Shown one piece after another: positions 21,389 through 36,614 of a stretch of DNA of 38,377 bases (position 1 is the stretch's first letter; each line of letters opens with the position of its first letter). A program made the translations under genes and the position numbers. The stretch covers positions 1 through 38,377 of the forward strand of contig JAAYUS010000029.1 of NCBI GenBank assembly GCA_012517605.1. The letters are read 5' to 3'. The notes under the pieces were generated by a model, which made no database searches, was not told the DNA's origin, and worked only from the letters and a program-made list of their open reading frames with translations. The stretch is from Bacteroidales bacterium. GTDB taxonomy: Bacteria; Bacteroidota; Bacteroidia; Bacteroidales; VadinHA17.

Positions 21389-21559
21389 ATGTACTCACCC
21401 CGAACCCCCTCTCTACTTCGTAACGAGGGGGCCAGTTTTCATTCCGGTTTGTGTCCGAAATCTCTATCTGCGGGTTCTCATCCTAACCACAATCCTTCTT
21501 ATTGGGTTCTTCCCCACTCGTTGCGGCAGCAGAGAGGGGGGCAGGGGGGGTGAGTACAT
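21389..21559. repeat. Palindromic repeat element, copy 1 (171 bp)
   Basis: Starts atgtactcaccc and ends gggtgagtacat, perfect 12-base terminal inverted repeats. The arms extend inward about 45 bases as imperfect inverted repeats. Left arm: a C-rich run, ctctctac, ttcgtaacgag. Right arm: ctcgttgcggcagcagagag and a G-rich run. A non-conserved core of about 70 bases separates them. A second copy is at 33998-34122. No transposase frame is inside. It looks like a MITE- or REP-type non-autonomous hairpin element. Confidence 0.85.
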
Positions 21560-21660
21560 CACCATTCAGGGATAACAGGGTTAATACATTCAATATCCGA
21601 ATGCTTACTTCTGACATTCAAATTGATTTATTATTAAATTCACAACCAGAGTAATAAAAC

Positions 21661-31114: not shown

Positions 31115-33541
31115 TCAGAAAGCAAGGTTCAGTCTGAGGTAGGCATTGCGTCCCGGTTCGACACTGATGCTTCCCCTGTTTGTTGAGAGATGGCTTGTGT
31201 AGCTCCGGTCGGTTATGTTGTCAACGCCTGCGAATAACTGGAGCATAGTGCGCCCGAGATTTAGCCGTGCTGAACTAAGTGCGAGGTCGAGGCGGGTAAA
31301 GCCGCCAGTTTCCTTTTCTCCTTCAGCAATCCTGTCCTGGCCTGCTGCTCCGACAATTGTTATTTCAGCCGAGCCAATCCTGCTGTTTGTGTAACGTAAA
31401 CCCAGGCGGCCGCTGAGAGGCGGGATCTGCGGAAGGTCTTTCCCGGCTTCAGTATCTTTTCCCCGCACATACGATCCTGATCCGAGCAACACAAAGTCAG
31501 AATGGAAATTATACTGAAATCCGAAATCAAAACCATAAAGTAAGGCCTTGCTTACATTCTTGTTTACCAGTGCAGGAAGGGTGTCAGTCAATCCTTCAGA
31601 TGCGCCGGTATTGATTGTATAAATAAAGCTTCCCGGAGCTTCGACAATCATATTCAGTATCCTGTTTGCAAAAACATCTGCCTGGAAGTTGAACTTCGGC
31701 TTCCAGACCCTTATTCCCAGATCGGCCGAATAACCACTTTCAGGTTTAAGGTCAGTGTTGCCAAGACGCACGTAATTACCGAGATCGATATATTTGAACA
31801 GTTCTTCAAGTGATGGCGCCCTGAAAGAACGGGCAAGGCTCAGCGACAGGTCTGAATCTTTGAACAGTTTGTAAAGCAAGCCTGCGTTGGCGCTCCACGA
31901 AATATTGTTCCGGCTGCCTGCCTCAAATGTTATACGCTGATTTGGCGGAGTATCATTTCTCACTCCGTTTGTTATCAGGTAATCAATATCGACACCCTGT
32001 TCGTTTTTAACCATTATCTGATCCATTCTTCCTCCTGCGATAAGAGTCATTTTGTCGTCGAGGAGATGTGTTTCATCCTGTATAAATACTCCTGCACTCG
32101 TAAATGAGGATTCAGGTATCGGGGTCTCACCCCGGACTATATTATTTGTTTTTACAACATTCCCTGCCTGATTAAGTATTTCAACCCTGATATCTTTTCT
32201 GCGCGTAGTGGTCAGGTTTCGTGACCATATGTCCAAACCGGCGATAAGAGTGTTATTATCAGAAAGGTTCCAGCTGCTCTGCAGCTTTCCACCCTGAGTG
32301 AAATGATTTCCGACGGGTGTTACCAGTTCGGGAGTAATACGCTGAAAGCCGGTTGGGGTAGGGGTTAAAGTAACAGTATTGGGGATCATGGCAACATCGC
32401 GCTGGATGTACTGCATAAAATAACTCAGTTTTAAAGATGACAGTTTCTCACTGATATTATTGATTTCATAATCTGCTGCCAGAAGTTGTCTTCCTATATC
32501 TGTATAAGTTGCCTGAGCCGGCCCGGGGAATGCATTGCCTCCGGGGATTCCGACATCAGTTGACCAGTTTCTCTGGTACTGAATTCTGAAAATATGATTG
32601 GCATGAGGCTTTATCCCGATTTTTGCAGCCATGTTGCTTGTGGTAAACTGGCTGTTGGGCAGGATGCCTTCGGGTGTTCGCATATCATCAGCCTTGCCAT
32701 AGGCGCCGCTTACCCTGAAATACCATTTTTTTGCACCTGTGCTGATATCTGCATGATTCATGAAGAGTTTGTTGGCTGAAGCAAAGCCTGAAAGGACATT
32801 GCCCGACAGATAAGGTTTTTCTGAAAAATGACCGTCTTTGGTGATTATATTGACAATTCCTCCCATGGCTCCGGTGCCGTACAGGGACGACATTGCACCC
32901 TTGACCACTTCAACCCTGTCGACATCATTTACATCGGTCATGCTCAGTGATGCAGTCAGATCGGTTGCAGTTTCAACCCGGTTTCCGTCGATAAGGGTTA
33001 CCAGCCTGTTTTCATTGAAACCGCGGATATTTATATTAGTCGACCACACGCCATCGTTTCCCATTGTTATGCCAGGCTCGGTGGCAAGTACATTTGACAG
33101 GGTAAGGGCTGAAAGTTTCTTATATCTCGATGACTCCACAACGACGACAGGTGCCGGCAGCTTCTTTACCTGACGATTTACAACAAGGCTCGTGACCTCT
33201 ACTTCGCCAAGATTCACATGCTGGGGCGACATTAAAAACTCCTGCTGAAGGCTGCTGCTGAGATTTATTTCCCAGGATACCGGGCTGTAGCCGAGCATCT
33301 TAAGGACCACCAGATACCTGCCAGCCGGTAGTGAAAGCTCAAAGCGCCCCCTAACATCGCTAATTCCTGCAGCAAATGCTTTTTCTGCCGTGCCTGGACT
33401 GGTTGCCATGGCCACAACACCCTCAAGTGAAGTGTTATTTACAGAATCACGGACAATTCCACGAAGAACATATTTCTGCCCGAATGAGCTCAACGAAATG
33501 AATAAAGCAATAAACGCAGTAAAGATCAATTTTCTCTTCAT
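31115..33541 (-). CDS. TonB-dependent outer-membrane receptor
   Basis: 808-residue receptor for energised uptake across the outer membrane. Signal peptide (1-21), a carboxypeptidase-regulatory-like domain (about 25-110, LRGIVRDSVNNTSLEGVVA), plug domain (about 125-235) with RGFNENRLVTLIDGNRVET and VEVVKGAMSSLYGTGAMGG, then a 22-strand barrel with LARSFRAPSLEELF and NTDLKPESGYSADLG, ending in the aromatic YLRLNLAF. The plan resembles BtuB/heme/siderophore-type receptors rather than SusC, as there is no SusD. The gene starts 1 base after the TM1266-type regulator stop, so the two are translationally coupled. Ligand unknown. Confidence 0.93.
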   Translation of the reverse strand: MKRKLIFTAFIALFISLSSFGQKYVLRGIVRDSVNNTSLEGVVAMATSPGTAEKAFAAGISDVRGRFELSLPAGRYLVVLKMLGYSPVSWEINLSSSLQQEFLMSPQHVNLGEVEVTSLVVNRQVKKLPAPVVVVESSRYKKLSALTLSNVLATEPGITMGNDGVWSTNINIRGFNENRLVTLIDGNRVETATDLTASLSMTDVNDVDRVEVVKGAMSSLYGTGAMGGIVNIITKDGHFSEKPYLSGNVLSGFASANKLFMNHADISTGAKKWYFRVSGAYGKADDMRTPEGILPNSQFTTSNMAAKIGIKPHANHIFRIQYQRNWSTDVGIPGGNAFPGPAQATYTDIGRQLLAADYEINNISEKLSSLKLSYFMQYIQRDVAMIPNTVTLTPTPTGFQRITPELVTPVGNHFTQGGKLQSSWNLSDNNTLIAGLDIWSRNLTTTRRKDIRVEILNQAGNVVKTNNIVRGETPIPESSFTSAGVFIQDETHLLDDKMTLIAGGRMDQIMVKNEQGVDIDYLITNGVRNDTPPNQRITFEAGSRNNISWSANAGLLYKLFKDSDLSLSLARSFRAPSLEELFKYIDLGNYVRLGNTDLKPESGYSADLGIRVWKPKFNFQADVFANRILNMIVEAPGSFIYTINTGASEGLTDTLPALVNKNVSKALLYGFDFGFQYNFHSDFVLLGSGSYVRGKDTEAGKDLPQIPPLSGRLGLRYTNSRIGSAEITIVGAAGQDRIAEGEKETGGFTRLDLALSSARLNLGRTMLQLFAGVDNITDRSYTSHLSTNRGSISVEPGRNAYLRLNLAF

Positions 33542-33542
33542 A

Positions 33543-33788
33543 TTACATATTCTTTAAAAGTACCGACTTAACCTGAATTCCACTCAACCGGCCAAGCTGA
33601 CCGGTAAGTGAACCAATCTCATCGGTGGTACCTTCAAGAACAAGGGAAATGATGCTTTGTCCATTGCTGCGGGGCAATCCAAGGCGTCCAAATATGATCT
33701 GTGAATGCTTCGAAAGGATTTCGTTCAGCTGCTGAACACTTTCGCGTTCCTGAATCATGATTATAGCTGATCCCACTCTCTTTTCCAT
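33543..33788 (-). CDS. TM1266-family putative iron-only hydrogenase system regulator
   Basis: 81-residue ACT/NikR-C-like small protein. The opening MEKRVGSAIIMIQERESVQQ, the QIIFGRLGLPR turn, SIISLVLEGTTDEIGSLTGQ and LGRLSGIQVKS match the TM1266 family closely and at full length. By family knowledge (TIGRFAMs hyd_TM1266), members occur with HydE/HydF/HydG, the [FeFe]-hydrogenase maturases, and are presumed regulators. Here it has a strong Shine-Dalgarno (ggaggt at 33800-33795), rare in this phylum, and overlaps transcriptionally with a TonB receptor 1 base downstream. No hydrogenase or maturase gene is in the window. Confidence 0.9.
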   Translation of the reverse strand: MEKRVGSAIIMIQERESVQQLNEILSKHSQIIFGRLGLPRSNGQSIISLVLEGTTDEIGSLTGQLGRLSGIQVKSVLLKNM

Positions 33789-33803
33789 CAGAATACCTCC
33801 GGG

Positions 33804-33860
33804 TTAGATTGATTTGTCTATCTGCGTGTCCTTGATCTTCCGCAATGATAATGATGCCAT
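33804..33860 (-). CDS. Possible 18-codon leader ORF before the TM1266 gene
   Basis: Minus-strand frame from ATG 33860 to TAA 33804, reading MASLSLRKIKDTQIDKSI. It ends 15 bases before the TM1266 start, with the Shine-Dalgarno in between, a layout seen with leader peptides or with the end of a decayed gene. An in-frame TGA lies five codons upstream. No attenuator hairpin is obvious. Could be chance. Confidence 0.2.
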   Translation of the reverse strand: MASLSLRKIKDTQIDKSI

Positions 33861-33997
33861 CCGGCGAGGATCTCAGACAGGGCAGATTTATTGTTAATTA
33901 TTTCACAAAGGTCGTGATTTTATTTTCAGTTTGCAAGAAAGAAAAGAATTTTAAGCAAAATATATTCCCTGATTGCTGAAAACAGGATATTGGTTTC

Positions 33998-34122
33998 ATG
34001 TACTCACCCCCACTACTTTGTAACGAGGGGGCCAGTTTTCGTCCTTTTTTTAGGTTTGCTACTTTCCTTAAGCCACCCCCCCTCGTTGCGGCAGCAGAGA
34101 GGGGGGCAGGGGGGGTGAGTAC
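33998..34122. repeat. Palindromic repeat element, copy 2 (125 bp)
   Basis: Second copy of the element at 21389-21559. It shares the atgtactcaccc left end, the taacgagggggccagttttc inner left arm and the right arm ctcgttgcggcagcagagag followed by a G run and gtgagtac. The left arm lacks about 13 bases (the ctctct part) and the core is shorter and unrelated. It sits between the divergent TM1266/TonB-receptor and transporter units. Confidence 0.85.
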
Positions 34123-34177
34123 GTACATATTTTCAAAGAAACCCCATAAAAAATAACTTAGTAATTCCCTTTATAGA

Positions 34178-34185
34178 TAGTTTTG
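34178..34185 (+). promoter_or_regulatory. -7 box for the transporter operon
   Basis: TAGTTTTG matches TAnnTTTG, 17 bases before the ATG of the binding-protein gene at 34203. It lies 55 bases beyond the repeat element, so the repeat is upstream of the promoter and not transcribed from it. The -33 region lacks an exact TTTG. Confidence 0.45.
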
Positions 34186-34202
34186 CAATAATAACTTTTA
34201 CC

Positions 34203-35168
34203 ATGCTGAAAAAGCTTTCATATCTGCTGATTATTTTGACACTGCTTTGCGGATGCGGGAAAAGGTCTGCGACTGAAACAGGCAGTTCAAAATATATACT
34301 TGCAACCCTTAAAGGGCCTTCTGCCATGGGCATGATAAAAATGATCGACAGCCTGAATAATGATACCGGGCATTCAGTTGAAGTAAAGATCCTGAGCGAA
34401 CCGTTGCAGGTGAGAAAAATGATGCTTGACGGGTCGGCCGATTTTGCAATTCTGCCAACCACCATGGCCGCTATAATGTATAACAAAGGGTTGAAATACA
34501 AACTGATAGGGGTGCCTGTTTGGGGAACTCTTTATATGGTCGGAAATAATTCCGCCATTAACAGATGGGAAGACCTGAAGGGGAAGCGGATATTTGTTAT
34601 GGCAAGGGGAATGACACCCGATGTCATGTTCCGGTATCTTCTGACTAAAAACGGACTGAATCCCGACAAAGATGTTGACCTTGATTACAGTTTTCCCACA
34701 CATATTGATCTTGCAAATGCTGTGGCGGCAGGACAGGCACCACTGGCAATCATTTCAGAACCCCTTGCAAGTCTGGTTATGAAGAAAAATAAAGATATCA
34801 GACGGATCTTTGATCTTGAAGAGGAATGGGGTAAATTTGAGGACATTGCAGTTGCTGAGACTGCCTTTCTCGGCAAGGAAAGCGTAATTCAGAAAGACAG
34901 GGAGACGGTGAAAAGAATTGTTTCAGCATATGCCCTGTCAACTGAATGGGTGAATAAACATCCCGACAGTGCTGCCGCCCTGATCGTTAAATACGGAATT
35001 TTGCCCGATGCCGAAGTTGCGTCAAGAGCTATACCGGGGTCGCATCTCAGGTTCGTAAATGCTTATGATGCAAAAAAGGAAGTTGAGGATTATCTCTATG
35101 TATTTTATAATTTGAATCCGGATATTACAGGAGGAAAAATGCCTGATGAAAATTTCATTTACAGGTAA
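34203..35168 (+). CDS. ABC transporter substrate-binding lipoprotein (NMT1/SsuA-like)
   Basis: 321-residue periplasmic binding protein anchored as lipoprotein: MLKKLSYLLIILTLLCGCGK with C18 in LCGC. The mature part is a type-2 binding fold of the NMT1/THI5/SsuA/TauA class (YILATLKGPSAMGMIKMID, the DGSADFAILPTTMAAIMYNKG loop, INRWEDLKGKRIFVMARG and AAGQAPLAIISEPLASLVM). This class binds small compounds such as pyrimidine precursors, sulfonates or nitrate; sequence by eye does not identify the ligand. The last 23 bases overlap the permease gene, showing one operon with permease and ATPase. Confidence 0.88.
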   Translation: MLKKLSYLLIILTLLCGCGKRSATETGSSKYILATLKGPSAMGMIKMIDSLNNDTGHSVEVKILSEPLQVRKMMLDGSADFAILPTTMAAIMYNKGLKYKLIGVPVWGTLYMVGNNSAINRWEDLKGKRIFVMARGMTPDVMFRYLLTKNGLNPDKDVDLDYSFPTHIDLANAVAAGQAPLAIISEPLASLVMKKNKDIRRIFDLEEEWGKFEDIAVAETAFLGKESVIQKDRETVKRIVSAYALSTEWVNKHPDSAAALIVKYGILPDAEVASRAIPGSHLRFVNAYDAKKEVEDYLYVFYNLNPDITGGKMPDENFIYR

Positions 35169-35901
35169 ACAATATATAAGCCTCGCCTCAGTGGTTTTCA
35201 TGCTTTTGGTATGGAAGATCCTGTCATTGCATTTTAAATCTGATTTTGTTCTTCCTTCCCCGGAAAAAACCCTGATAACCACATTGAGCCTTTTTCTTGA
35301 CGGCAATTTCCTTAAGACCGTAGGAACGACTATTTCAAGGGGACTTGCCGGATTCATAATATCGGGGATGCTTGGCATAGGAACGGGAATTTTAACAGGG
35401 ATCAATCCGTATGTAAATGCATTTCTTCGTCCTATACTTGTTACAATACGCTCAACACCAGTAGTTTCGATCATTCTTTTAGCCCTTATATGGCTGCATC
35501 CGGGTGCTGTGCCTGTTTTTATCGGCATGCTTACTATGTTCCCTTTTATATGCACGAACGTGAGCGACGGGATAAGGAGTATCGACAATGAGCTTGTTGT
35601 GATGGCTGACTTTTACAGGGTCAGCCGGAAAAGGATAGTACGGGAGTTATATATCCCTGCCATAATGCCATTTATAGTTAGCGGAGCATCGAGTGCAATG
35701 GGCATAGGCTGGCGTGCCATAATAATAGGAGAAGTTCTCAGTCAGCCACGTTACGGAATTGGAACGATGATGCAAAATGCACAGACATTTCTAAATGCAG
35801 ATGCTGTAATTGCCTGGACGATTATCGCGGTTCTCATAAGCTATTTATTTGAGAAAACGATACGCTGGGCTGAAAGTAAATTCATAACATGGAGGGCCTG
35901 A
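35146..35901 (+). CDS. ABC transporter permease (SsuC/TauC-like)
   Basis: 251-residue inner-membrane permease with about six helices, of the binding-protein-dependent transport family (BPD_transp_1) that includes SsuC, TauC and ThiX. The cytoplasmic coupling loop is VVMADFYRVSRKRIVRELYI followed by P and a later GIGWRAIIIGEVLSQPRYGIG, where the usual EAA-type motif contacts the ATPase. The start ATG 35146 overlaps the preceding gene by 23 bases, and the ATPase ATG at 35904 lies just after its TGA, so the three are translated in concert. Confidence 0.9.
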   Translation: MKISFTGKQYISLASVVFMLLVWKILSLHFKSDFVLPSPEKTLITTLSLFLDGNFLKTVGTTISRGLAGFIISGMLGIGTGILTGINPYVNAFLRPILVTIRSTPVVSIILLALIWLHPGAVPVFIGMLTMFPFICTNVSDGIRSIDNELVVMADFYRVSRKRIVRELYIPAIMPFIVSGASSAMGIGWRAIIIGEVLSQPRYGIGTMMQNAQTFLNADAVIAWTIIAVLISYLFEKTIRWAESKFITWRA

Positions 35902-35903
35902 TC

Positions 35904-36614
35904 ATGAGTCTCGAAATCAAAGCCCTTTACAAGAATTTCGACAAGATATCACTTTTCAGTGACTTCAACATTTCATTTCAGGAAGGCACTATCACCTGTA
36001 TTCTTGGTCCTTCAGGTTGCGGCAAAACAACATTGCTGAATATCATGGGCGGAATTATTAAACCCGACAGCGGTCAGCTTTCAGGATTCAATGAAAAATC
36101 AATATCCTATATATTCCAGGACCCAAGGCTTCTTCCCTGGAAAACTGTTGAGGAGAACATAGAATTTGTGCTTAAAAGGGATATTCCTGCTGAACAGCGT
36201 CATAAGGTTACAGGACAACTCATCAGGCTGATGGAGCTTGAAGATTTTGCAGGGTATTATCCCTCCAGGCTGAGCGGGGGTATGCGTCAGCGGGTTTCAA
36301 TTGCAAGGGCTTTTGCATATCCTTCCGATGTGATCCTGATGGACGAACCGCTTAAGGGGCTGGATATTAAACTGAAACTGAATCTTGTCCGTGTGTTTTC
36401 AAGAATGTGGCAGGCCGATAAAAGGACAGTGATTTTCGTAACTCATGATGTAGATGAAGCTCTTTTGCTTGGCAGCGATGTTATTGTTCTGAGCCGTCCG
36501 CCGGCAAAGATCCTTCTTAACAGACAGATTGACCTCCCTTTTGAAAACCGTTCGCCTGATTCCGGGTCGTTGAAGGAGATGAAGGACAGTCTTATTGATG
36601 CCCTTGGGAATTAG
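35904..36614 (+). CDS. ABC transporter ATP-binding protein (SsuB/TauB-like)
   Basis: 236-residue ATPase subunit. Walker A GPSGCGKT (35-42), Q-loop FQDPRLLPWKTVEEN, signature LSGGMRQRVSIARAF, Walker B VILMDEPLKGLD and H-loop VTHDVDEAL are all intact. The DPRLLPW Q-loop and DEPLKGLD are typical of the nitrate/sulfonate/taurine/thiamine-precursor subfamily. Two starts are possible: ATG 35889 inside the permease gene or ATG 35904, 2 bases after the permease stop and 7 bases after ggaggg; the latter is preferred. It completes the importer begun at 34203. Confidence 0.93.
   Translation: MSLEIKALYKNFDKISLFSDFNISFQEGTITCILGPSGCGKTTLLNIMGGIIKPDSGQLSGFNEKSISYIFQDPRLLPWKTVEENIEFVLKRDIPAEQRHKVTGQLIRLMELEDFAGYYPSRLSGGMRQRVSIARAFAYPSDVILMDEPLKGLDIKLKLNLVRVFSRMWQADKRTVIFVTHDVDEALLLGSDVIVLSRPPAKILLNRQIDLPFENRSPDSGSLKEMKDSLIDALGN

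Follow-up and report, generated by a model that had tools for sequence, protein, structure and literature searches.

A TM1266-associated TonB/ABC import cassette of Bacteroidales is linked to [FeFe]-hydrogenase and may supply an H-cluster precursor where the HydEFG maturases are missing

A cassette of five genes, encoding a TM1266-like small protein, a TonB-dependent outer-membrane receptor and a complete ATP-binding cassette (ABC) importer, is located on a contig of a Bacteroidales bacterium (assembly GCA_012517605.1, contig JAAYUS010000029.1, positions 1 to 38,377; this whole stretch of 38,377 nucleotides is called the window). The genes form two divergent units, and all five were found at the places, with the one-base spacing and in the divergent arrangement described in an earlier note made from the sequence, their domains being confirmed by library searches. 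The leftward pair on the minus strand starts with the TM1266-like protein of 81 amino acids (33543-33788), which scores over the cut-offs of PF21699 (81.8 bits against 27) and TIGR03959 hyd_TM1266 (87.2 against 60.8) and matches the solved relative 2nzc with an E-value of 8.8e-13. The single Pfam domain spans residues 6-75 of the 81, leaving no space for a distinct DNA-binding domain, and the name "regulator" of the family is given as "putative" in both the Pfam and the NCBIfam libraries. A single intervening base (33542) separates its stop codon from the receptor gene (31115-33541, minus strand, 808 amino acids), whose product carries the plug and beta-barrel domains of TonB-dependent receptors, both over cut-off (PF07715 with 82 bits, PF00593 with 148 bits), and has as best NCBIfam match the haem receptor subfamily TIGR01785, at a score below the cut-off of that model.

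The rightward unit on the plus strand starts with a lipoprotein of NMT1/SsuA-type fold, the substrate-binding protein (SBP; 34203-35168), which is over cut-off for PF09084 (NMT1) and PF12974 and begins with a stretch that by eye resembles a lipobox (LLCGC). It is followed by the ABC permease (35146-35901; PF00528, 68 bits) and the ABC ATPase (35889-36614; PF00005, 101 bits), with overlaps of 23 bases between the SBP and permease genes and of 13 bases between the permease and ATPase genes. The domains of the three proteins together with the SBP fold are those of an SsuABC/NMT1-type importer. In NCBIfam the permease is nearest to SaoP/SsuC/TauC-like and the ATPase to SaoA/TauB-like models, all at scores under the cut-offs, and none of the named equivalogs SsuA/SsuC, TauB/TauC, SaoX/SaoP/SaoA and the nitrate proteins NtrB/NtrCD was over cut-off among the matches listed (for the ATPase, the best 25 of 185). 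Permeases of the FecCD type are usual for siderophores and B12, and the BtuF-type SBP goes with that type; a siderophore or B12 importer of FecCD/BtuCD type was rejected, since the permease is PF00528 and the SBP is PF09084/PF12974. The intergenic region between the divergent units (33789-34202) contains a 15-nt inverted repeat (34000-34014 and 34108-34122). This repeat (33996-34126) resembles a small repeat element, one arm of which recurs at 21544-21561, and it overlaps an open reading frame (ORF) of 76 amino acids that is probably spurious. Scans for promoters and terminators yielded no firm result, and a search with Rfam returned one tRNA, unrelated to the cassette. Among the listed ORFs of the window no hydrogenase was seen (those before 27786 were read by eye, without library search), in line with the earlier note, though hydrogenase genes are present in other parts of this genome.

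The structure model of the SBP (pLDDT 93) has as its nearest fold 3hn0, the protein BDI_1369 of Parabacteroides distasonis (Z 34, 27% identical), which was also the sole match of the SBP family profile in the PDB at an E-value of 1e-8 or better (1.7e-46). The next kin, at Z 25-28, form a group that includes the zinc-bound 3un6, the pyrroloquinoline quinone (PQQ)-binding PqqT and SsuA; going by the model, these relatives do not name the cargo. The cassette shares fold and domain make-up of its ABC parts with the SsuABC, TauABC and NMT1 importers, but its genes stay under the listed cut-offs of these named families and stand together with those of a TonB receptor and of TM1266. In B12 uptake by BtuB-BtuFCD, a system that occurs with or without the biosynthetic genes, a TonB receptor likewise stands with an SBP, a permease and an ATPase; both the BtuCD transporter and the fold of BtuF are of another type than the SsuABC/NMT1 parts found here. 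In the system of PqqU, a TonB receptor, and PqqT, an ABC binding protein, a redox cofactor is taken up by cells that have the enzyme and do not make the cofactor, and the fold of PqqT is close to that of the SBP model (Z about 26). It differs in its cargo, in an identity to PqqT of 14-15%, and in that the cassette has TM1266 and a linkage to [FeFe]-hydrogenase.

Conservation was analyzed in 60 genomes of relatives, including that of the window (G000). PF21699 was over cut-off in 19 of them, and the comparison of 20 regions, around these matches and one weaker match, revealed two sorts: the gene lies either beside hydrogenase and maturase genes or in one group with the genes of a TonB receptor and of an SBP, a permease and an ATPase. 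The second, cassette-type context is present in nine of the 60 genomes (G000, G002, G007, G012, G014, G025, G033, G038 and G057), and a search with the SBP returned the same nine and one weak match in G044. A collection of named genomes was also scanned with the SBP alignment and 80 of 111 relatives were kept; some of these loci come from genomes already in the sample of 60, two genomes contribute two loci each, and some of the incomplete loci are cut by contig ends. Bacteroidota-type titles belong to 79 of the 80 loci and one is from a Thermincola metagenome-assembled genome (MAG); isolates with an SBP locus include Draconibacterium orientale, Mariniphaga anaerophila and Perlabentimonas gracilis. 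Of the 80 loci, 60 contain TM1266, 62 a TonB receptor and 52 all five genes, so that chance neighbours were rejected. The coupling of receptor and importer, which the earlier note had drawn from position, is thereby supported in many genomes, and the absence from relatives or lack of co-occurrence that it had named as grounds for giving up the functional link was not found. In two loci a second, distant TonB receptor precedes the SBP (L142:7836-9959 and L156:6693-8813; Pfam checked on L142), and in three others (L178, from G057, L182 and L174) an 844-amino-acid Sortilin/BNR-type protein with a weak match to a secretion tail lies before the SBP (Pfam on L182).

Genes of hydrogenase clusters flank 21 of the 80 SBP loci, among them three (L152, L174 and L179) that were counted on a Rex-type gene alone, and 12 of the 21 contain hydG. 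The left part of locus L164 reads HydE-HydF-HydG-TonB-TM1266, with HydE, HydF, HydG and TM1266 of the locus named by search; back to back with it follow the SBP, a small receiver-type gene, the permease and the ATPase, and beyond the ATPase a FAD-synthetase-type gene, Rex, a sensor kinase, HydA and NuoF. The names HydE, HydF, HydG and HydA were confirmed over cut-off on seven proteins, and the Rex-, FAD-synthetase- and lyase-type domains on locus L269; the cluster genes called Rex, RibF and HydS carry names which we take to be the appropriate ones. It is very probable that the cassette is linked to [FeFe]-hydrogenase, the tie that the earlier note had suggested from family knowledge. Its other proposal, a wider role of TM1266 proteins in the regulation of transport, need not be invoked, since the TM1266 studied here remains tied to hydrogenase. 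Two further features were observed at such loci: a lone response-regulator receiver gene between SBP and permease (L142:11060-11452, with similar ORFs in L164 and L268), and proteins of 86 amino acids near HydE/HydG or the cassette that to the eye resemble distant relatives of TM1266 (L142:2714-3269, L164:2757-3017 and L268:6801-7061), the one tested having no Pfam match at 1e-5.

The hydrogenase domain PF02906 was found as a strong match in all nine cassette genomes of the 60. G000, a 94.6% complete draft, encodes two group A6 [FeFe]-hydrogenases (887 and 899 bits, NCBIfam cut-off 765), one of them adjoining NuoF- and NuoE-like partner genes, and both contain all three motifs of the H-cluster, TSC(S/C)PGW, MPC..KK.E and E.MACPGGC.GGGG; a third HydA-type protein (L267, 573 amino acids) scores under the group A cut-off. 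Genomes lacking both HydG and HydF supplied 25 HydA loci, two of them from the cassette-less genomes G016 and G044. A strict three-motif pattern was matched in 22 of the 25, and the other three have a variant last motif with its cysteines kept; in genomes with HydG or HydF it was matched in 33 of 35 loci. In M. anaerophila one of two HydA proteins checked is without the third motif by this pattern. Judged by their motifs, the HydA proteins of maturase-less genomes look intact.

In G000 no HydF was over cut-off and the HydG model gave zero matches (the own model of HydE was not run on this genome). Elsewhere the HydG model also catches HydE at about 40-75 bits, and HydE was judged through this cross-match, except for eight proteins checked directly (six and two). 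As a protein of the [FeFe]-hydrogenase system, the TM1266 protein of the window has the hydrogenase in its host genome, where these searches did not find HydE, HydF and HydG, and unlike the other context seen for its family, which adjoins HydG, it here leads a transport cassette where HydG and HydF were not found. Among the 60 genomes HydF was over cut-off in 37 and absent over cut-off in eight of the nine cassette genomes; the HydG search covered 32 genomes, and seven of the nine cassette genomes were without any match. The ninth genome, G007, has HydF and HydG on a contig (L043) with 61% GC; it was rejected as holder of its own HydEFG, as its cassette contig (L045) has 43% GC and its own hydrogenase locus is without these two genes, and the maturase contig was judged, not proven, to be foreign. 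This contig (G007:C169), which carries HydF, HydG and TM1266, is a probable binning contaminant, the other G007 contigs seen having about 43% GC.

The sites from which the maturase genes are missing can be compared with those of congeners. Four of these (G017, G020, G011 and G008; loci L033, L034, L036 and L037) have a cluster in the order Rex-RibF-HydG-TM1266-...-HydE, with a lyase gene preceding HydE in two of the four. In G025, G014, G012, G033 and G007 the sequence from Rex to an acetyl-CoA-synthetase-type gene is continuous, without HydG, TM1266 and HydE. In G000 the gap between RibF and the lyase gene is 40 bases; the contig ends one gene further on, before the far side, and HydE of this genome was judged by the genome search. 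An assembly gap as cause of the missing HydG in G000 was rejected, since the hydrogenase locus is continuous where congeners have HydG. G000 and its five relatives have lost the maturase genes rather than having a gap in their sequence, and all six carry the cassette; G016 is also empty at the HydG/TM1266/HydE site, yet has no cassette.

The same state was found among 50 cassette genomes, whose rates are biased because they were picked for the lack of hydG in the flank. HydG was over cut-off in nine, HydF in 14 and PF02906 in 48 (strong in 45), and 30 of the 50 have a strong HydA with neither HydG nor HydF, among them the isolate Mariniphaga anaerophila DSM 26910; in 26 no HydE was found through the HydG model either. 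In G083 a partial HydF match of 109 bits with an in-frame stop (C12:56934-57248) is perhaps the remnant of a lost maturase gene. The Thermincola MAG, from a lineage without outer membrane, has the ABC part together with a HydA that is intact; HydF did not reach its cut-off, and the locus contains no TonB receptor. Its two sub-threshold matches to the HydG model were rejected as HydG, being ThiH and PylB. In a phylogeny built from the SBP, the permease and the ATPase (79 rows, with the root placed by choice on L184) the maturase status needs 13 changes, a figure inflated by draft genomes; several deep branches have hydG (L142 and its neighbours, L160, L171 and L172), and a deep group (L176, L178, L179 and L182) is without it. 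The tree of TM1266 was too short to be resolved. It is favoured that the importer arose alongside HydEFG and later permitted repeated loss of HydEFG.

The relation between cassette and maturase was quantified in 392 genomes of the order, at least 90% complete and drawn evenly, not selected by hydG status, which were searched for PF02906, HydG and the SBP. A match was called strong at an E-value below 1e-70, which for HydG gives 247 genomes against 246 over cut-off; the lists were compiled by hand. PF02906 was found in 274 genomes and strongly in 250, of which 24 were without a strong HydG. The clear SBP matches fall into a first tier of 15 genomes better than 1e-80 and a second tier of eight genomes between 1e-46 and 1e-55. 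Both tiers together are present in 16 of the 24 HydA-positive genomes without full HydG, in four of the 226 with HydA and HydG, and in none of the 118 without PF02906 (Fisher p 5e-16); the first tier alone gives 11 of 24 against four of 226 (p 6e-10). All four HydG-positive genomes belong to one family (f92), and in the three remaining second-tier genomes (G143, G234 and G311) PF02906 matches more weakly and HydG does not reach its cut-off. In seven families that contain members with and without HydG as well as the SBP (f1, f3, f4, f25, f70, f86 and f91) the SBP is solely in the HydG-less member, a contrast of seven out of seven in one direction (sign test p 0.016, hand tally); in f8, f11, f35, f49, f60 and f69 both kinds occur and neither has a clear SBP. 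Eight HydA-positive genomes without strong HydG have no SBP of either tier (G041, G045, G133, G312, G374, G448, G119 and G454), and the first six of these each have a partial HydG or a HydE-sized match. Post-hoc exclusion of seven genomes gives 16 of 17, with G119 among the excluded scoring like the retained G175 and G198 on the HydG model; excluding just the six gives 16 of 18. In the comparison with HydE, HydF and HydG proposed in the earlier note, the cassette sometimes lies beside hydG, as in the 12 loci given above, but the relation is mostly inverse.

The second-tier loci (L249-L256, from G143, G268, G336, G234, G184, G175, G198 and G311, all genomes without full HydG) hold distant SBP relatives, one of which matches 3hn0 at an E-value of 2.6e-47. 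In six of the eight, unlike in the window cassette, the SBP adjoins a permease-type ORF of 451-492 amino acids, which in L250 is a permease-ATPase fusion by Pfam. A Tex-like (by eye) ORF of 700 amino acids lies near the SBP in such loci.

Taken together, it is proposed that bacteria without HydEFG import the [2Fe] sub-site of the H-cluster, or a near-complete precursor of it, made by others, and that TM1266 senses or handles it in builders and importers alike; we rate this reading at about 0.5, and its narrower part, that the TonB/ABC importer brings in an H-cluster precursor (the complete [2Fe] sub-site or a late one), as slightly better than an even chance. The TonB receptor would take the compound across the outer membrane, the lipoprotein SBP would capture it, and the SsuABC-type transporter would move it into the cytoplasm, import being the direction known for these families. 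The cargo would most likely be the [2Fe] sub-site or a late precursor released by other cells, with the small TM1266 protein as its most probable sensor or handler. Apo-HydA would be activated without HydE, HydF and HydG, in the way that PQQ importers supply cells with PQQ enzymes but no PQQ synthesis of their own. This cargo is suggested by an argument of need: HydA is kept and its builders are gone, added synthetic cofactor matures apo-HydA in E. coli, which lacks HydEFG (PMC6984386), and TonB-dependent import of PQQ by non-producing cells has been reported (PMC12124388). Cofactor importers of this build are already known, and for the proposed cargo no precedent was found: the listed titles and abstract starts of open-licence PMC articles contained nothing on uptake of the H-cluster, salvage of the cofactor, maturase-less HydA or TonB together with HydF/HydG, the passage found there on TM1266 lists the gene and no more, and the main text of a paper on gut hydrogenases is without the terms hydE and hydF (PMC12578642). 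A substrate for H-cluster biogenesis had been suggested in the earlier note, which missed the absent maturases, and it is the best remaining reading.

Several observations weigh against this proposal. The SBP tiers were defined after the scores were seen, and 19 more genomes have weaker SBP matches (E-values of 1e-26 to 1e-5), mostly in ORFs of 560-680 amino acids, which we took for another protein; a tally by hand of all 42 SBP genomes turns the figures into 17 of 24, 15 of 226 and 6 of 118. Most genomes are drafts, and the eight second-tier genomes are without TonB or TM1266 beside the SBP, their maturase status covering HydG only. G002 has the cassette together with HydG and HydE on its hydrogenase contig, and Draconibacterium orientale (G067) and family f92 likewise hold it with maturases; import is therefore not simply a substitute for HydEFG. 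Conversely, G016, G044 and G454 have HydA with neither a full HydG nor the cassette, G016 and G044 having neither HydF nor HydG over cut-off. Of the 50 cassette genomes, five are without a strong HydA (G072, G075, G081, G096 and G106). Six others keep HydF without HydG (G069, G070, G076, G088, G094 and G095), and in four of the 30 a true HydE, over the HydE cut-off, is the only maturase kept (G077, G089, G092 and G102); a complete [2Fe] cargo fits these genomes less well. The HydE genes of G077 (L285) and G102 (L286), two genomes in which neither HydG nor HydF was over cut-off, lie on contigs 0.8 and 2.2 Mb long. No ligand was seen for any part of the cassette, and a free [2Fe] complex in the environment was not found documented in the literature consulted.

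Among the alternatives, the one that survives best is that the importer serves the [FeFe]-hydrogenase with a helper nutrient, such as an iron chelate or another precursor, and that other enzymes assemble the H-cluster in HydEFG-less genomes. That the cassette is found in hydrogenase clusters even where a genome retains HydG speaks for it, as does the haem receptor subfamily as best, sub-threshold NCBIfam match of the receptor, iron compounds being a frequent cargo of TonB receptors. However, it requires alternative maturases as a second unknown, the transporter belongs to the SsuABC/NMT1 type rather than to FecCD, the usual one for siderophores and B12, and by itself it leaves the concentration of the cassette where HydG is missing unexplained; we regard it as unlikely. 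Still less probable is an earlier maturation intermediate as cargo, for example the mononuclear Fe-CO-CN product of HydG, that would be completed inside the cell by TM1266 or by a HydF or HydE that the genome has kept. Such a cargo would suit the six of 50 cassette genomes with HydF and no HydG and the four others with HydE and neither HydG nor HydF, but the 26 with HydA and no HydG, HydF or HydE found would need finishing enzymes that are not known. That the cassette is an ordinary nutrient importer, for a sulfonate, a thiamine precursor, nitrate or the like, which merely tracks lineages of HydEFG loss, is improbable: the SBP fold is common to SsuA, TauA, NrtA, Thi5 and PqqT and the Pfam and NCBIfam names point that way, but neither the lack of a clear SBP in all genomes without PF02906 and the uniform family contrasts, nor the position in hydrogenase-type clusters and the frequent presence of TM1266, would be expected of it. 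Finally, the idea that maturase-less genomes encode a HydA that is either inactive or independent of the [2Fe] site, the maturases being lost as unneeded, is very improbable, for although the activity of these proteins is predicted from sequence, one M. anaerophila HydA misses its third motif by pattern and we know of no natural maturation route other than HydEFG, the motifs are intact by the strict pattern in most loci, with the last-motif cysteines kept in the others, and NuoF-type partner genes are retained beside HydA.

If the import of a [2Fe] precursor proves true, a CO- and CN-bearing diiron cofactor or its precursor would be a shared good in anaerobic communities, and predictions of H2 producers that are based on HydEFG would be wrong for a part of the Bacteroidales. 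The cassette also offers a handle on the unexplained TM1266 family, and the isolate Mariniphaga anaerophila and the solved binding protein 3hn0 are available as test cases for the import.

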